Shown here piece by piece: positions 21,055 through 28,828 of a stretch of 64,000 nucleotides of DNA (positions are counted from its first letter, which is position 1; each line of letters begins with the position of its first letter). The stretch lies in NCBI RefSeq assembly GCF_004005945.1, contig NZ_SACS01000023.1:1-64000 (forward strand), in the 5' to 3' direction. A program made the translations under genes and the position numbers. Below the pieces are notes generated by a model. It worked only from the letters and a program-made list of their open reading frames with translations, searched no databases and was not told where the DNA came from. Source of the stretch: Rheinheimera riviphila. Lineage in GTDB: Bacteria > Pseudomonadota > Gammaproteobacteria > Enterobacterales > Alteromonadaceae.

Positions 21055-21687
21055 TTACTCTGCAGCAGGCGCATCGTCCGCATCACGGCCGTACCAATCA
21101 TCTAATACTTGCTCTAATTCAGTTAAACCTTGTTTACTGAGCGAGCTAAACGTATGCACTGTGACATCACCCATAAAGGCCAATGATGCTTCACGCACTT
21201 CCAGCAGGGTTTTCTTGCGTGGGCCTGGGCTTAATTTATCAGCTTTGGTCAACAGCAATAATACCGACAGCTGACTTTCAACTGCCCAGTGGATCAATTG
21301 CTGATCTAAATCTTTCAGCGGATGGCGGATATCCATTAATACCACCAACCCTTTTAGACTTTGCCGTTTCATCAGGTATTCACCCAATGACTTTTGCCAT
21401 TTTTCTTTCACCGCTAACGGCACTTTGGCAAAACCATAACCGGGTAAATCGATCAGACGTTTTTCATCGGCTAAACGAAACGTATTAATCAGTTGCGTCC
21501 GACCCGGCGTTTTACTGGTTCTGGCCAGACCGTTTTGCCGGGTAAGCGTATTCAAAGCACTGGATTTACCCGCATTGGACCGCCCAGCAAACGCCACTTC
21601 AATGCCGGTATCAGGTGGCAACGCGGTAATATCCGGGGCACTGGTTAAGAAACTGGTCTGCTGATAATTAAATTTTGCTTTGTACAC
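21055..21687 (-). CDS. engB: Ribosome biogenesis GTPase EngB (YihA/YsxC)
   Basis: 210 residues, an essential TRAFAC-class GTPase for large-subunit assembly. Motifs: G1 GRSNAGKS (35-42), G3 [12 protein letters not shown]4 LTKADKL, and the family strand EVAFAGRSN. The start is GTG, preceded by GGAGTGAGTT. The neighbours polA and yihI are also conserved around engB in enterics. Divergent from cytochrome c4. Confidence 0.95.
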
Positions 21688-21866
21688 AACTCACTCCGAC
21701 GTCAAATTTGGCTATAGTGTAGCGGATCTAGTTGATCTGAAGAAGCATTAGCCGCTTGAATGGGATTTTATCTGGCTAAGTTTCGTGTAAAATAGCCATA
21801 ATTCTTAGGGTTATTATCTTTTATACCTGCTTTTTGCAGGTTCACGCTGAACAGAGACGGATAAAC

Positions 21867-22493
21867 ATGAAAAAATTCGCACTTCCAGTCATGCTTTTTT
21901 TAGGGTTAGTTGGCCAGGTCTTTGCGGTTGAAGGCAATGCAGAAGCAGGTAAAGCAAAATCAGCCACTTGTGCTGCATGCCATGGCCCTGATGGCAACAG
22001 CCCAACCGATATGTATCCGAAAATTGCTGGCCAACACGCTGGCTACATTTACAAACAACTGAAAGAATTTAAAGCCGGTATGACTTCTGGCGGCAAAGAA
22101 GGTCGTAACAACGCGGTGATGGGCGGCATGGTTGCAGCTTTATCCGATCAGGATATGAAAGATTTGGCGGTGTTTTACGCCAGCCAGACGATGAAATCAG
22201 GTTCAACGCCGGAAGATGTGGTCGCCCGCGGTCAGCAATTATTCCGCGCTGGTGATATGGATCGTGGCATTGCAGCTTGTATTGCTTGTCACGGCCCACG
22301 TGGTGTTGGCCACAGCCTGGCGAACTTTCCAAAAATCTCTTTCCAGCACCCTGCATACATTAAAGCGCAGCTGGAATCTTTCCGCAGCGGCACCCGCGCC
22401 AATGACATGAATGGCATGATGCGCGACATTGCGAAAAAGCTGACCGACGAAGATATCGAAGTACTGTCAAAATATCTGGGCGGCCTGCATTAA
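21867..22493 (+). CDS. Cytochrome c4 (diheme)
   Basis: 208 residues from the ATG at 21867, where a signal peptide begins (KKFALPVMLFLGLVGQVFA); the 11-codon upstream extension is rejected. Two class I cytochrome domains with heme sites CAACH (Cys35-His39) and CIACH (about residue 135) and matching distal Met regions. Periplasmic electron donor to terminal oxidases, for example the cbb3 type. The engB-cytochrome c4 pairing is common in aerobic gammaproteobacteria. Confidence 0.93.
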   Translation: MKKFALPVMLFLGLVGQVFAVEGNAEAGKAKSATCAACHGPDGNSPTDMYPKIAGQHAGYIYKQLKEFKAGMTSGGKEGRNNAVMGGMVAALSDQDMKDLAVFYASQTMKSGSTPEDVVARGQQLFRAGDMDRGIAACIACHGPRGVGHSLANFPKISFQHPAYIKAQLESFRSGTRANDMNGMMRDIAKKLTDEDIEVLSKYLGGLH

Positions 22494-22594: not shown

Positions 22595-23812
22595 TTAAAA
22601 ATCTGCATGCGGACCAAATACTTCATAGTGGATCTGCGCCGATCCAACACCCAATGCTAACAGCTGCTCCTTCACGGCCTTCATAAAACCAGTAGGACCA
22701 CAGAGGTAAAAGTTGGCACTTTGCAGCGGCATTACGCTAGCAACGGCTGCAATATCCATCAAGCCAGTAAACTGATTTGATTCAATCATTTGCGGCGCGT
22801 TGCGATACCAGCAAAAATGCTGCAACAACGGATAATCCTGCGCCAACTGCTGCACACGGCCGGCAAAGGAATGCTGCGCTTGATCTTCACAAGCATGCAG
22901 AAAATACACTGGTGTCTGTTGTTTTAACGCCACAATACTCTCCAACATCGACATCATCGGTGTTAGACCCACACCTGCCGAAATCAGCACAGTGGGGAGA
23001 TGAGCCGATTGCAGAAAAAAATCACCGGCTGGCGGTAAAATATCCAGCTCGTCGCCTTCCTGAATATGGTCATGTAAGTAATTTGACACTAATCCAACAA
23101 CGGGGCCGGCGACCTCACCAGTTTCACGTTTGACGCTGATGCGGTAACTATGGCCATTAGCTTTGTCCGAAAGCGAATATTGACGGATCTCAAAATAGTC
23201 GCAATTCGCTGGTTTAACTTTCACCCCCAAATATTGCCCAGGCTGGAAATCCACCACCGCTTCGCCATCCTGCGGTACTAACACAAAACTTGTGACCAGC
23301 GCCGACTCCGGAACTTTTTGTTGCACCTTAAACCGCCGCGGGCCATACCAGCCGCCTTGCTGTTGTTCGGTCTGCTGATATAACTGGCGCTCCCGACCGG
23401 TAAAAATATTGGCGAGCACGCCATAAGCTTCAGTCCAGGCTTGTTCAACATCTGCGGTAAAGGCGTCCGGAGCCAGCTCGCGCAAGGTCTCAATTAAGTG
23501 ATGGCCAACAATGTCATAGTGCGCTGGCTGAATAAAAAAGCTGGTGTGTTTATGCGCCACCCGCTCAACCGTTTCGGTCAGCACCGACAGGTTATCAATA
23601 TTTTTGGCATAAGCAGCAATGGCACTAAACAGCGCAAATTGCTGCCGACCACTCTGCTGATTGGTCATATTAAAAATATCTTTCAGCTCAGGATTCAACC
23701 GAAACATCCGTTGATAAAAATGGTTGGTGATCGCGACTCCAGCATTTTCCAAAAGTGGGACTGTGCTTTTGACGATAGCGATAGTTTTTGCAGACAACTG
23801 GGCGGAACACAT
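22595..23812 (-). CDS. hmp: Flavohemoprotein, nitric oxide dioxygenase Hmp
   Basis: 405 residues from the ATG at 23812, preferred over an ATG five codons upstream because GAGG lies 9 bases before it. Converts NO and O2 to nitrate with NAD(P)H. Globin domain (1-140): proximal heme His in HKHTSF and NPELKDIFNMTNQ. FAD domain: RQYSLSD. NAD domain: GVGLTPMMSMLES and YLCGPTGFM. The last gene of a three-gene NO-response unit with nnrS 41 bp upstream; an inverted repeat AACTT-N7-AAGTT (23839-23855) spans the gap. Confidence 0.95.
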   Translation of the reverse strand: MCSAQLSAKTIAIVKSTVPLLENAGVAITNHFYQRMFRLNPELKDIFNMTNQQSGRQQFALFSAIAAYAKNIDNLSVLTETVERVAHKHTSFFIQPAHYDIVGHHLIETLRELAPDAFTADVEQAWTEAYGVLANIFTGRERQLYQQTEQQQGGWYGPRRFKVQQKVPESALVTSFVLVPQDGEAVVDFQPGQYLGVKVKPANCDYFEIRQYSLSDKANGHSYRISVKRETGEVAGPVVGLVSNYLHDHIQEGDELDILPPAGDFFLQSAHLPTVLISAGVGLTPMMSMLESIVALKQQTPVYFLHACEDQAQHSFAGRVQQLAQDYPLLQHFCWYRNAPQMIESNQFTGLMDIAAVASVMPLQSANFYLCGPTGFMKAVKEQLLALGVGSAQIHYEVFGPHADF

Positions 23813-23853
23813 AGAGTAAAACCTCATCTAATTTAAACAACTTACAGTACAAG

Positions 23854-25089
23854 TTAACCCGGTCTGCCATCAGCGCGTGGCTGGGTCAGGATGGGCCAAT
23901 AAAACCAGAGGAAAATGGCAAAGGCGCAAAGCCAGAGCAGAGCGCTCACTTGCCAGAACAACAGCGGAAAACCGGATAAAGTCGCAAACATACGTAGTGG
24001 CCCGGCCAGCAATAACAAGCCAAAAGCCAGGCTTAACATTTTTCCGACCTGCAACGCGCGGCCGGTATGGCCTAAGGACACCCGCGCCATCATGGCCAGG
24101 ATCATGCCCGCCATCGCACCGATGCTGAGTAAATGCAGCACATCTTTAAATGGGATCAGCTGGGTTAAATCGCTCAGCCCTAACAGCAACAAACCCAAGG
24201 CGAGCGCCAGATAAGCCAGCTGTAACGACCAGAGCAACGGCACTTGCCAGATTTTCCCTGGCGTCCAATAAATCAGCCGTAATAGATGCAAAACCCCAAG
24301 CAGCAACATGATCCAACCGGCTCGAAGTGGCAGTTCGACAAAAAAACCAAGCAGAAACATCGCAGTGCCAAGCACCGATAGCGGTAATAAGATTTTATCC
24401 AACAGCGGGGTTTTCTGTTGCTCCAGACCAAGCGCTCTGGCGGTAAAAAACGGGATCACCCGGCCACCGACAATGCCCATCAACATGCAAAACAGCAGGA
24501 TCACGCTATGACTCAGGTGGGCTGCAAGGGCAAATTGTTGGATGGAGACTGCAAAAACAAAACCGGTATTGAGTAGCGCCATCACCGATAACAGTGGAAT
24601 AAACAGGTAGTTATTCCGACTTTTCGCCCGGATCAGTAAACTGGCTAAGCTATAAATCGCGCCACACCACCACAACAATTGCGTCAGCATAAATAGCCAT
24701 AACAGCGGCGGAAATGCCGAAAATAACAGACTCAATCGGGCGGTTAACCAGAGCAGACTGAGCAGAAATAGCGGCTTGCCGGACAGGCTGGGCAGTCCGG
24801 TCCAGTTTTGGGCGGCGGTGAGTAAAAAGCCGACGGCGACAACCGCACCAAAGCCAAATAACATCTCATGGGCGTGCCAAAGCGAAGGAGGAAACGCCAG
24901 CTGCCATGTCAGCAAGCCACTGAACCATAAAGCCCACATCGCTATTGCGATCAAAGCCCAGCTGGCGCCTGCCAGAAAAAATGGCCGGAATGCCAACGCG
25001 AAAAGTGCCGCAGATGACCAGGGTTTGGCATATCCGTCGGAAGTTTCCGGCCAATGGATATTGTGTAAAGTTGGATCTTTGCGCGCCAT
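23854..25089 (-). CDS. nnrS: NnrS-family heme/copper membrane protein
   Basis: 411 residues, about 12 membrane helices. NnrS hallmarks: LAFRPFFLAGASWA, SLWHAHEMLFGFGAVV and GFLLTAAQNWTG. NnrS proteins help bacteria withstand nitrosative stress by keeping iron from being trapped in nitrosyl complexes. The ATG directly abuts the stop of the upstream small membrane gene, and hmp follows, so the three are co-transcribed. Confidence 0.92.
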   Translation of the reverse strand: MARKDPTLHNIHWPETSDGYAKPWSSAALFALAFRPFFLAGASWALIAIAMWALWFSGLLTWQLAFPPSLWHAHEMLFGFGAVVAVGFLLTAAQNWTGLPSLSGKPLFLLSLLWLTARLSLLFSAFPPLLWLFMLTQLLWWCGAIYSLASLLIRAKSRNNYLFIPLLSVMALLNTGFVFAVSIQQFALAAHLSHSVILLFCMLMGIVGGRVIPFFTARALGLEQQKTPLLDKILLPLSVLGTAMFLLGFFVELPLRAGWIMLLLGVLHLLRLIYWTPGKIWQVPLLWSLQLAYLALALGLLLLGLSDLTQLIPFKDVLHLLSIGAMAGMILAMMARVSLGHTGRALQVGKMLSLAFGLLLLAGPLRMFATLSGFPLLFWQVSALLWLCAFAIFLWFYWPILTQPRADGRPG

Positions 25090-25359
25090 TTAACGCACTT
25101 CCTGATGCAGCTCATATTGCGCAATACAGCGGCAGATATAAGCTATTTTCAGTAAGGTCGCGCTGAAAATTAACGTGACGTGGCTAGCCAGTTGCAGTTC
25201 AAATGAAAACAGCGCAGCGAGCGGATAACACACCAGAATGGTCGCTAGCAGCAGACAAAAAGATAAGGCTAAAACCGTGTTGGCGACCAATAACAGAGTT
25301 TCAAACTGATCGCTGGCAGACAGCTGTTGATGGTGGAAAACTTGGGCTAAATGCAACAT
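25090..25359 (-). CDS. Small membrane protein of the NO-response operon
   Basis: 89 residues from the ATG at 25359, which has AGGAG seven bases upstream; the 22-codon extension has no such signal and would span the sigma-54 promoter. Two hydrophobic helices (TLLLVANTVLALSFCLLLAT and HVTLIFSATLLKIAYICRCI), with short charged ends. No family recognised with certainty; small two-helix proteins of this kind accompany nnrS in several gammaproteobacteria. First gene of the operon, immediately followed by nnrS, so probably a partner or assembly protein for it. Confidence 0.75.
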   Translation of the reverse strand: MLHLAQVFHHQQLSASDQFETLLLVANTVLALSFCLLLATILVCYPLAALFSFELQLASHVTLIFSATLLKIAYICRCIAQYELHQEVR

Positions 25360-25408
25360 AACAGGCTCCTTGGGAGTCCCCTGACTCCGCTGTGGTTCAC
25401 TGAGATAT

Positions 25409-25424
25409 TGCAGTTCTGATGCCA
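25409..25424 (-). promoter_or_regulatory. Sigma-54 (-24/-12) promoter of the nnrS-hmp operon
   Basis: On the minus strand TGGCATCAGAACTGCA matches the RpoN consensus TGGCAY-N-TTGCW with the required GG-N10-GC spacing. It lies 50 bases upstream of the first gene, and NorR-type sites sit beyond it. Confidence 0.8.
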
Positions 25425-25450
25425 CTTATTTATTTGTTATATTTCATTTA

Positions 25451-25513
25451 GTTACAAAATAACCTCAATCAAACGGAGTCATAATGACTCCGTTAATAAT
25501 GAGTCAAAATGAC
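25451..25513. promoter_or_regulatory. NorR enhancer sites
   Basis: Two perfect GT-N7-AC elements: GTCATAATGAC (25478-25488, inside the 19-bp palindrome CGGAGTCATAATGACTCCG) and GTCAAAATGAC (25503-25513). A weaker GTTACAAAATAAC lies at 25451-25463. Their centres are about 25 bp apart, echoing the three NorR sites upstream of E. coli norVW. They lie roughly 60-110 bp upstream of the sigma-54 start site and just before norR itself. Confidence 0.78.
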
Positions 25514-25568
25514 AAATTAGATTTGTTATGACACAATTTACGAAACTCCTTTTGCCACCGGAACCGCT

Positions 25569-27185
25569 ATGGCCGAATTAAATTCAACTTTGTTGCTGGA
25601 AGTGGCACTGGATTTAGCCAATAGCATTACCAGCAGCGATCGGTTTGATCGGTTGCTGAGCTCAATCCGCAAGGCCATCAACTGCGACGCCGTGGTGTTA
25701 TTGTCCTATCAGGGCGAGCTGTTGCAGCCGCTGGCTATTCAGGGGCTGACCGCTGACACTTTAGGCCGCCGCTTTTGGCTGAAAGACCACCCGCGCCTTT
25801 TGATCATTTGCCAAAGCACTGATCCGGTGCGTTTTGCGTCCAACACCACCCTGGCCGACCCATATGACGGTTTATTGCTGGCGCAGGCCGGCGATTTGCC
25901 GGTGCATTCCTGTATGGGGTTGCCTTTGTACTCCGACGGCCAACTGATGGGCGTGGTGACATTGGATAGCCTGAAACCCGATGCTTTTTCTGCGATTGCC
26001 GAACGGACGCTGCAGCTGATTGCGGCGATGTCGGCGGCCACTTTAAAAACTGCGGTGCAGCTGAAAAAGCTCGAGCAAAGTGCCCGGCAGGCGCAAGATT
26101 TGGTGGAAGAACTGACCCACGAAGCGCTGACCCGGGAAGGCGGCGAATTAATTGGTCAAAGCAGCAGCATGCTGGCGCTTAAAAGTGATATTCAACTGGT
26201 GGCCGCTTCCGACTACACCGTGCTCATTCAGGGCGAAACCGGCGTCGGGAAAGAGCTGGTTGCCCGTACTGTGCATCTGTTATCCAGGCGGGTAAAACAA
26301 CAGCTGGTGCATTTAAACTGCGCCTCATTGCCGGAAACATTGGCGGAAAGTGAGTTGTTCGGTCATGCCAAAGGCGCTTTTACCGGCGCCGATCGCGATC
26401 GTCCGGGCAAATTTTTGCTCGCTGATGGCGGCACTATTTTTCTCGATGAAGTGGGTGAATTGCCACTTGCGGTGCAAAGTAAATTATTACGGGTGCTGCA
26501 AAGTGGTGAAATTCAGCCGGTTGGCAAAGACGATGTAAAAACCGTTAATGTGCGGGTGATTGCGGCCACCAACCGCGATTTAGCTGCTGAAGTGGCTGCT
26601 GGCCGGTTTCGGGCCGATTTATATCACCGGCTGTCGGTCTACCCTATAACGGTCCCTGCGCTCAAAGACCGGCAGCAGGATGTGCTGCTGCTGGCCGGAT
26701 ATTTTCTGGAACTGACAGCGCGAAAACTGGGCTTACGCCAATTAAAGCTGAGTCCGGCGGCGCAATTGCAACTGTTGCAATACAACTGGCCTGGTAATGT
26801 GCGGGAACTGGAGCATGTGATCAGCCGCGCGGCGCTTAAAGCCAGTAAAGACTCGACTGCCGGGGACATTATTGCCTTAATGCCAGCACATCTGGAGCTT
26901 CATACCAATACGCCATTCACCGCGCCCCCAACCATTGTATCCAGCGCCGACCTACAGTTACCAAGGGAAGTCGTCACCGGCACAAGTTTAAAAACCGCAA
27001 CCGACGAATTTCAAAAACAACAAATTTTGCAAATGTTACAAAGCACATCCGGCAATTGGAGCCAAGCGGCAAAGCTGCTGGAGCTGGATCGGGCGAATCT
27101 GTCCCGCCTGGCCAAAAGATTGGGCATCAGCGTCGAAAAAACGGTTCATGGCGGCCATAGTCCGACAAGGTCTACACTGCCATAA
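25569..27185 (+). CDS. norR: NO-responsive sigma-54 activator NorR
   Basis: 538 residues. N-terminal GAF domain (~20-175), which in NorR binds NO at a non-heme iron. Central AAA+ domain with Walker A GETGVGKE, the sigma-54 contact loop GAFTGA and Walker [15 protein letters not shown]-terminal Fis-type helix-turn-helix ([24 protein letters not shown]). Divergent from the nnrS-hmp operon, whose sigma-54 promoter and enhancer sites it should use. No norVW follows, so the NorR targets here are hmp and nnrS. Confidence 0.93.
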
Positions 27186-27216
27186 CCAAACGGTGTGGCA
27201 AAAAAAGGAGCCAAAA

Positions 27217-27492
27217 ATGAACCCGGTAATTATTGCCTGCGATATCCATGATCATGTTGAAATTATCTGTATGCGGCGCTACGAGGTGGTGCTCCATCTG
27301 CTGAATGGATCTCTGGTACAAGGTCTGGCCAAGAATACCCGCAGTAGCGCAGCAGAAGAATTTCTGCTGCTGGAGCAACAGGGTGAACAGCTGGAAGTGC
27401 CGCTGTTACAGATCCAGTATATCGAGGTATTAACTGCTGGAGCACCACTGGCGCAGATCTGGTTGCACCCAGCAGGCAGCTGCGCTATGTAG
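27217..27492 (+). CDS. rof: Rho-binding antiterminator (Rof-like)
   Basis: 91 residues from the ATG at 27217, preceded by AAGGAG. The pattern IACDIHDHVEIICMRRYEVV ... LLNG ... VPLLQIQYIEVL fits the Rof/YaeO family, a small SH3-like barrel that binds the RNA site of Rho and lowers termination. It begins 31 bases after norR on the same strand, probably its operon partner. The family call is made from pattern only. Confidence 0.75.
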   Translation: MNPVIIACDIHDHVEIICMRRYEVVLHLLNGSLVQGLAKNTRSSAAEEFLLLEQQGEQLEVPLLQIQYIEVLTAGAPLAQIWLHPAGSCAM

Positions 27493-27604: not shown

Positions 27605-27622
27605 TGTGAGATATATCTCACA
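27605..27622 (+). promoter_or_regulatory. UvrY/GacA-type upstream activating palindrome
   Basis: TGTGAGATATATCTCACA, an 18-bp perfect palindrome that closely matches the UvrY site at E. coli csrB (TGTGAGAGATCTCTTACA as I recall it) and the GacA box TGTAAG-N6-CTTACA. It sits about 185 bp upstream of the proposed RNA start, a distance typical of these sites. A second palindrome CGTAAGATTTACG follows at 27628-27640. Confidence 0.7.
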
Positions 27623-27755
27623 CGCAGCGTAAGATTTACGCCCGAAAAATTACAGTAATACATCAACCTCAGCTGATAATTCATGCTAACTAGCTGATTT
27701 AATTTGACACTCTGAAATGGTTCAATTTTTTTGTGGTTTTTTTTTGTGCACAGTC

Positions 27756-27783
27756 TTGTCATTCTGCGCAATAGGTGTAAATT
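27756..27783 (+). promoter_or_regulatory. Promoter of the CsrC-like RNA
   Basis: -35 TTGTCA (27756-27761), 16-bp spacer, -10 TAAATT (27778-27783). It predicts a start near 27790. Long T-tracts lie just upstream. Confidence 0.45.
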
Positions 27784-27789
27784 AAACCC

Positions 27790-28088
27790 CGTTACAGATT
27801 GTAACATCTCAACAAAATGGAATTTTTAAGCACGGAAAGCATAAGTGCTTCGGTACATTCATCAAGACATCGTCACTGATGTCAGCGTTTTTAACGCGAG
27901 CAAGGAAGATTAAAAAAGTATTAGGACGATCGCGAATAATGATTTGTATAGGGAAATGACCTAACAATATATGGAAACTGACCAGACAGGGTGTCTCACG
28001 TAAGTCAGGATGATCTCAAAAAATTCAGCACCTTTCGGTGCAAACCTTCGAACGGCGGCAAGTTTCACTTCCCGCCGTTTTGTTTTAT
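27790..28088 (+). ncRNA. CsrC/RsmY-type CsrA-sequestering RNA (candidate)
   Basis: About 300 nt without a coding frame, holding seven GGA motifs (27819, 27834, 27904, 27924, 27952, 27973, 28008). At least two lie in hairpin loops: AAGCAC-[GGA...]-GTGCTT (27828-27850) and TCA-GGA-TGA (28006-28013). Further stems: GTTACA/TGTAAC, GACATC/GATGTC, GCGTT/AACGC, AGACA/TGTCT, GCACC/GGTGC. The end is a terminator AACGGCGG/CCGCCGTT (28051-28079) plus a T-rich tail. It lies directly upstream of yihI, exactly where E. coli has csrC, and a UvrY-type palindrome precedes it. In that family the RNA titrates CsrA/RsmA. Confidence 0.68.
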
Positions 28089-28270
28089 CTGCGATTTGGT
28101 TTTTATCACCATGGCTTGCCGTCAGTAGCCGTTTTATCGCCAGCACACGCTACCCCAGGCTGCAGACTTGTCTAAGCTGTAAATGCAGTATTATTCGGAT
28201 CCACGCGAAATACATAGGCAGCGTGGTGAAAACTGGTTAAAATACGCGCCCTTTTCTACAGGTAGACATT

Positions 28271-28828
28271 ATGACTCGCAAAAAGAAAGCACGTACCTCC
28301 GGCCAGCTTGGTATTCGGCATAAACCCACTGCAGAAGCCCGCCAGGAACGTGAACGCCCTGTAGAATCCAAGAAAAAAGGTGCAGGCTTAAAATCCGGTA
28401 GCCGCAATGCGGTGCATGCGGATAAAACCACCGATAGCAGCAACAAAAACAAAGATCCCCGCCATGGCAGCAAAACGCCAATTCCACTGGTCGTGACCGT
28501 GGCCGAGAAGAAGCTGCTCGCACCACAAACCACACCAAAAGCTTTACTTGCCAAAGCCAAGCCAGTTGAAATTCCACCGCAGGTTGAATTAGAGCAACTG
28601 GAACAGGATGAAAAACTGCAAGAATTGCTGGAGCGGATGGAACAAGGCGAAACGCTGACCGGCAAAGATGCCAAGTACTTCAACGCCAAAACTGCCCGTC
28701 ATTCTGAACTGCTGACGTTGCTGGGTCTGGATGTTGCAGATGACGAAGAAGACGAGCAAGAAGAAGAATTAGACGAGCTGAGTAAACTGCAGCAGGTTGA
28801 CTGGCGTAAAGACTTGCTGGGTGAATAA
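28271..28828 (+). CDS. yihI: Der GTPase-activating protein YihI
   Basis: 185 residues. A highly basic N-terminal half (TRKKKARTSGQLGIRHKPTA) and an acidic C-terminus (DVADDEEDEQEEELDELSKL) are typical of YihI. In E. coli YihI stimulates GTP hydrolysis by the ribosome-assembly GTPase Der and so tunes 50S maturation. Followed 15 bp later by the DUF2489 gene, then hemN further on, as in enterics. Confidence 0.93.
   Translation: MTRKKKARTSGQLGIRHKPTAEARQERERPVESKKKGAGLKSGSRNAVHADKTTDSSNKNKDPRHGSKTPIPLVVTVAEKKLLAPQTTPKALLAKAKPVEIPPQVELEQLEQDEKLQELLERMEQGETLTGKDAKYFNAKTARHSELLTLLGLDVADDEEDEQEEELDELSKLQQVDWRKDLLGE

Follow-up and report, generated by a model that had tools for sequence, protein, structure and literature searches.

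Our comparative analysis indicates with high probability that Rheinheimera riviphila carries an unannotated small RNA gene of the csrC type, ~295 nt in length and predicted to sequester CsrA, on the forward strand at positions 27791..28085 of the window (the 64,000-nt stretch of contig NZ_SACS01000023.1 analyzed here). The gene is conserved in 22/22 congeners, its core recurs 5′ of yihI in other genera, and its start at 27791 is placed from a predicted promoter and a 5′ hairpin. The first-pass annotation had proposed a “CsrC/RsmY-type” RNA at this place; a UvrY-type box, the csrC position, conservation and covariation all support the csrC-type reading. The RsmY part of the label calls for a refinement: CsrC is, judged from model matches and gene order, the better label than RsmY, because the candidate has no RsmY or RsmZ match in Rfam and shares its gene order with E. 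coli csrC.

The case rests on comparison, single-sequence tools alone being insufficient: the promoter scan returned promoter-like sites at chance level (2 vs. 1.9 in shuffles); a simple terminator scan did not flag the terminator at 28051-28085; the number of GGA motifs is unremarkable against dinucleotide shuffles (mean 4.5, p ~0.10; the same test on two relatives gave 0.004 and 0.03); and Rfam returned nothing. The fold of the whole RNA has a z score of −2.4. A 506-base query, by comparison, matched 22/22 genus genomes and 0/18 other genomes in the same search; a secondary match at C37 was dropped, as it sits inside an ORF.

The elements of the predicted transcription unit all lie on the forward strand. 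A double T tract at 27720..27746, a putative UP element or segment of curved DNA, is seen in the upstream sequences of 21/22 congeners, and a predicted σ70-type promoter, TTGTCA-16-TAAATT, follows at 27756..27783. The promoter claimed in the first-pass annotation is thus located, and its conservation in the 21 congeners with upstream sequence is, for a sequence-based prediction, better evidence than the promoter scan. The RNA would begin with a 5′ hairpin GUUAC-N5-GUAAC (27791..27805), the stem letters of which are invariant in 22/22 congeners; the loop varies across the 22 genomes and the stem never does, and this segment could be a protein site at the transcription start as well as an RNA hairpin. 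Further predicted hairpins are GCAC/GUGC at 27830..27848, with the GGA at 27834 in its loop; GACAUC/GAUGUC at 27866..27883 and GCACC/GGUGC at 28028..28041; and GCGUU/AACGC at 27885..27897, which in the inspected sequences of the other clade is GUGUA/UACAC (8/22 sequences examined). The RNA is predicted to end at a Rho-independent terminator (28051..28085), of which the hairpin spans 28051-28079 (−17.4 kcal/mol, z −3.9) and is followed by a T run; these values bear out the “strong terminator” that had been claimed, the miss by the simple scan notwithstanding. A G+C-rich stem end with a T run lies 277-303 nt past the 5′ hairpin in 22/22 congeners.

All seven GGA motifs that had been counted are present in the RNA (27819, 27834, 27904, 27924, 27952, 27973 and 28008), the count alone being not significant. 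Their conservation is more informative: six of the seven are invariant in the 22-row alignment, compared with 46/295 trinucleotides overall, and the RNAs of the 22 congeners carry 7 to 9 GGA each. Two further motifs are presented by putative CsrA-type hairpins, AUU-AGGAC-GAU at 27920..27930 and GUC-AGGAU-GAU at 28004..28014. The claim that two GGA lie in clear stem-loops holds in part: the hairpin with GGA 27834 has some energetic support (−6.4 kcal/mol, z −1.7) and both AGGA stems covary, but these stems are only 3 bp long and marginal by energy in the window sequence. Three of the seven GGA are, in all, in hairpins backed by energy or covariation.

Covariation was assessed in an alignment, A3, of 7 genus and 13 other-genus cores, leaving out 15 of the 22 genus cores as well as L093 (near-identical to L092), L101, L102 and L104. 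In A3 the hairpin at 27920..27930 is paired in 100% of cells, with double changes at 2/3 pairs, and that at 28004..28014 in 89.8% of cells, with double changes at 3/3 pairs. Together, the two AGGA-loop hairpins, which were picked by eye on this same alignment, show pairing in 95% of cells, changes on both sides in 20 cells and a covariation of 0.612, compared with 0.298 in shuffles, none of which (0/500) scored as high on pairing, double-change cells or covariation. Double changes occurred in 5 pairs, a number that 39/500 shuffles also reached; the number of further pair types (13) was reached by 1/500. When the pairing partner was slid, covariation was at most 0.221; the −3 slide still left 80.8% of cells paired (covariation 0.221). 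The rows had been found with R1, a model of a 99-nt core that was based on 17 of the 22 congeners and in which the hairpin at 28004-28014 is paired and that at 27920-27930 is unpaired; the latter is the cleaner covariation evidence because R1 did not favour it. Long-range pairs given by RNAalifold on the 22-genome alignment, in which one hairpin, offset by two columns from one clade to the other, is misaligned, were not relied on.

These data also bear on the function of the RNA. A structured RNA under UvrY control with some other role, e.g. an antisense or Hfq-dependent sRNA, would agree with the GGA count (p ~0.10) and with the presence of only three of the seven GGA in supported hairpins; we regard it as very unlikely, since GGA accounts for more of the invariant trinucleotides than any other (6 of 46), compensatory changes keep the AGGA loops closed, and E. 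coli csrC has the same gene order.

The csrC-type reading is further supported by a predicted UvrY/SirA/GacA-type box at 27605..27622, the perfect 18-bp palindrome TGTGAGATATATCTCACA, the centre of which is 177 bp upstream of the start of the predicted 5′ hairpin, close to the ~185 bp first noted. The genome (4.75 Mb) contains the exact palindrome just twice, the second copy being at csrB; the relaxed pattern TGTRAGN6CTYACA returns the same two places, and its reversed control none. Likeness to the UvrY site of csrB, as had been claimed, is confirmed both by this second copy and by the fit to the inverted repeat of E. coli csrB, TGTGAGAGATCTCTTACA, which is centred at −183/−182 (PMC4682653). 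According to the same source, csrB and csrC are the strongest UvrY targets in E. coli.

A strict box is found upstream of the candidate RNA in 19/22 congeners; two loci (L005 and L017) have a near match only, and one (L013) is cut by a contig end. Of the 12 genomes in one clade, five carry a pair of strict boxes at a spacing of 22 bp, and others have a strict and a near box at the same spacing. Sites of the TGTRAGN6CTYACA type number 1 to 5 per congener (22 genomes), compared with reversed-control counts of 0 in 17, 1 in 4 and 2 in 1; some congeners, e.g. G004, G006, G007, G010 and G012, have additional imperfect sites. It is highly improbable that the palindrome is instead a site for CRP or another regulator and its link to UvrY spurious. 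The resemblance of TGTGA...TCACA to CRP half-sites speaks for such a reading; against it, the palindrome fits the E. coli csrB UvrY repeat and is confined in this genome to csrB and the candidate, and its half-sites are 8 bp apart. The CRP consensus spaces its half-sites by 6 bp, and on this spacing the CRP reading was rejected.

The csrC-type RNA and its box share one intergenic stretch, from the end of rof at 27492 to yihI at 28271. The gene immediately downstream, as claimed, is yihI (Der GTPase activator; 28271..28828, forward strand), confirmed by the Pfam YihI family (PF04220, 115.4 bits). Upstream, assigned by Pfam and gene order, are engB/yihA (21055..21687, reverse strand) and cytochrome c4 (21864..22493, forward strand), the usual 5′ neighbour of the RNA. 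The RNA occupies the csrC position proposed for it, between engB/yihA and yihI, as in the E. coli order yihA-csrC-yihI. The order engB-cytochrome c4-RNA-yihI was read in 19/22 congeners, 12 of which have a methyltransferase-like gene after the RNA and before yihI; one of the 22 (G018) has a contig end at the locus. A block of hmp, nnrS, a 111-aa ORF, a norR-like σ54 activator and rof (22595..27492) separates cytochrome c4 from the RNA in only two of the 22 congeners, R. riviphila itself and G013, the full order in the latter being engB-c4-hmp-nnrS-norR-rof. Of the displacement from engB that the first-pass annotation had described, the hmp-nnrS-norR-rof insertion is confirmed; the inclusion of cytochrome c4 is not, since c4 adjoins the RNA in 19/22 congeners. 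Within the block, the 111-aa ORF between nnrS and norR (25090-25425, reverse strand) has no Pfam match, and it is odd to find rof, which encodes a Rho inhibitor, in the company of nitric-oxide genes. That the RNA might be a leader or attenuator of yihI, directly upstream of which it lies on the same strand, is extremely improbable in view of its terminator at 28051-28085, a separate promoter-like site at 28215-28243 and the methyltransferase-like gene that intervenes in 12/22 congeners.

The prediction that homology searches may miss this csrC-type RNA proved accurate. The covariance-model search suggested as a check, with the CsrB, CsrC, RsmY and RsmZ families of Rfam, gave no match at the candidate at gathering cut-offs or up to E 10, and blastn of the candidate against E. 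coli genomes gave none. The candidate is not filed under RF00084 or RF00018, because neither model matches it. A match to a yeast snoRNA family at E 7.8 was taken as noise.

Models built from the RNA itself reach beyond the genus. With R1, run on 147 family genomes, 22 genomes match at E 1 or better, five of them genus members, and 125 have no match at E 1 (stricter filters). Fourteen of the 17 non-genus matches have yihI downstream, either next in line or after a methyltransferase-like gene; a UvrY-type box is present at 10 of these 14 loci by a looser pattern and at three by the strict one. At L094 and L098 the upstream box starts TGTAAGACAT; the full box of L094, TGTAAGACATTGACCATT, is one letter off the inverted repeat of Salmonella csrC, TGTGAGACATTGACCATT (PMC4682653). 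Among the matches away from yihI, L102 is CsrB-like by Rfam (41.3 bits, below the cut-off): at position 1249 (reverse-complemented), the csrC core model caught a CsrB-like RNA of another genus with a UvrY box. L101 and L104 (R1/R2 matches off yihI) have no recognisable csr features and were counted as noise.

A second model, R2, was built from A3 and run on 29 yihI loci outside A3, E. coli csrC and the csrB locus of R. riviphila. Six of the 29 held-out loci match at E ≤0.013 and two more at E 0.18-0.19, all eight 5′ of yihI and on the yihI strand; the other 21 have no such match. One locus (L050) has a second match at 116-198, away from the RNA, and matches at L047 and L056 (E 2.8 and 4.6) were not used. 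R2 also matches E. coli csrC weakly, inside the annotated gene and on the right strand (15.9 bits, E 0.21); as a sequence match not significant alone, it is suggestive only. Across the order, 15/119 genomes match R2 at E 0.1 and 104 have no match at that threshold (stricter filters). The matches outside the genus fall at 14 places: ten yihI-linked, of which three (L111, L119 and L122) come from the same genomes as L045, L050 and L062; two CsrB or CsrB-like, L117 being CsrB by Rfam and L124 resembling it; and two (L118 and L123) with no recognisable csr features, counted as noise.

Rfam CsrC models give weak or partial matches 5′ of yihI in L037, L044, L050 and L062. The terminator of L062, GGCGACAGAGCAATCTGTCGCC, is near-identical to that of E. 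coli csrC, and the Rfam match covers just that part. Cytochrome c4 lies near yihI in 19 of the 29 loci from elsewhere in the order. We lean towards the view that a csrC locus next to yihI is ancestral to the GTDB order as a whole, being represented in E. coli, in the family of Rheinheimera and in no fewer than two other families (f6 and f21), that it often escapes Rfam because the RNA drifts fast, and that in Rheinheimera UvrY may directly control just csrB and csrC. If this order-wide reading is true, it becomes possible to test how old csrC is and how doubled Csr RNAs arose.

The second copy of the palindrome, at C28:15873, adjoins a divergent array matched by the Rfam CsrB model (58.7 bits, E 2.7e-14, below the gathering score of 71). 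This csrB (L003 1788-2156) is a near-regular 50-nt tandem array of 7.4 copies with GGA hairpins, and the 900 nt that flank the box on the csrB side contain 33 GGA. A Dyp-type peroxidase gene is divergent from it, and the UvrY-type box therefore sits between the two. Nearby (L003 1500-1586), the octamer TTGGTGAA is repeated 10.9 times without mismatch. Among the 22 congeners, 21 have a perfect palindrome apart from the candidate site, in every case with one GGA-rich, csrB-like flank (21-43 GGA vs. 5-14 on the other, up to 900 nt each); G003 has no second perfect palindrome away from the candidate site. Rfam CsrB matches, all under the gathering score, were obtained at 11 of the 13 congener second-box loci scanned (13 of the 20 besides that of R. 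riviphila), at 38.7-59.8 bits, and none at E 0.01 at the other two (L131 and L146).

The genome also encodes CsrA, UvrY (354.8 bits, cut-off 280; gene beside uvrC) and BarA (1068.7 bits, cut-off 890). It is established for the Csr RNA family that phosphorylated UvrY activates transcription and that the RNA titrates CsrA. By analogy, UvrY phosphorylated by its kinase BarA would bind the palindrome ~177 bp upstream and activate the promoter at 27756-27783; the terminated ~295-nt RNA would present its seven GGA, three of them in supported hairpin loops; and it would titrate the CsrA dimer off mRNAs jointly with the GGA-richer csrB. The BarA-UvrY-CsrA-CsrB-CsrC circuit of Rheinheimera is thereby complete on paper. 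The locus also suggests a search recipe for csrC genes missed by Rfam: the gap preceding yihI (or preceding a methyltransferase-like gene in front of it) together with a UvrY box.

By chromosomal position, the candidate looks like the counterpart, and putative ortholog, of E. coli csrC. Like CsrC (RF00084), it combines a place between yihA/engB and yihI with GGA motifs and a terminator; a UvrY inverted repeat lies upstream at a similar distance (PMC4682653); and the two have in common, within the weak R2 alignment, the stretch ACAGGGUGU. Unlike E. coli CsrC, it has neither an Rfam match nor a blastn match in E. coli genomes, its box is a perfect palindrome whereas that of E. coli csrC is degenerate (PMC4682653), and its usual neighbour is cytochrome c4, plus an NO-related block in the window genome. 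With CsrB/RsmB (RF00018), including the csrB of the same genome, it shares the 18-bp box and AGGA-loop hairpins; that csrB, however, is a GGA-richer array of 50-nt repeats, whereas the candidate has seven scattered GGA.

Other Csr sRNAs invite comparison. Pseudoalteromonas fuliginea has Pf1, Pf2 and Pf3 (PMC11882849; Pf1 also PMC9927453), of which Pf2 and Pf3 were both bound by CsrA in EMSA and possess functional promoters, and Pf3 has 9 GGA; their gene neighbours are given as locus tags in the available text (PMC11882849). The Alteromonas RNAs Aln1a-c are likewise CsrB-C-like, with A(N)GGA motifs and very high expression, but come as three RNAs from one 404-bp intergenic region (PMC5864184). 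Further known relatives are the csr RNAs of Vibrio (PMC6550530, PMC6262261), where csrB synteny groups are given by cluster letters in the text at hand (PMC6262261), and CsrB1/CsrB2 of Shewanella (PMC3171408); VSsrna24, beside spf, is a different RNA of ~60 nt (PMC3295665) and was set aside. A csrC predicted at mutM in Shewanella is transcribed but not UvrY-dependent (PMC3171408), which cautions against taking a sequence prediction of csrC as proof. Our literature search found no paper naming csrC in Rheinheimera; it did find papers on the genus that name csrA in passing. Within the genus, the RNA core of G016 (L022) contains a 21-nt tandem duplication that adds one GGA unit and may, as read from the sequence, offer a glimpse of how such RNAs grow.
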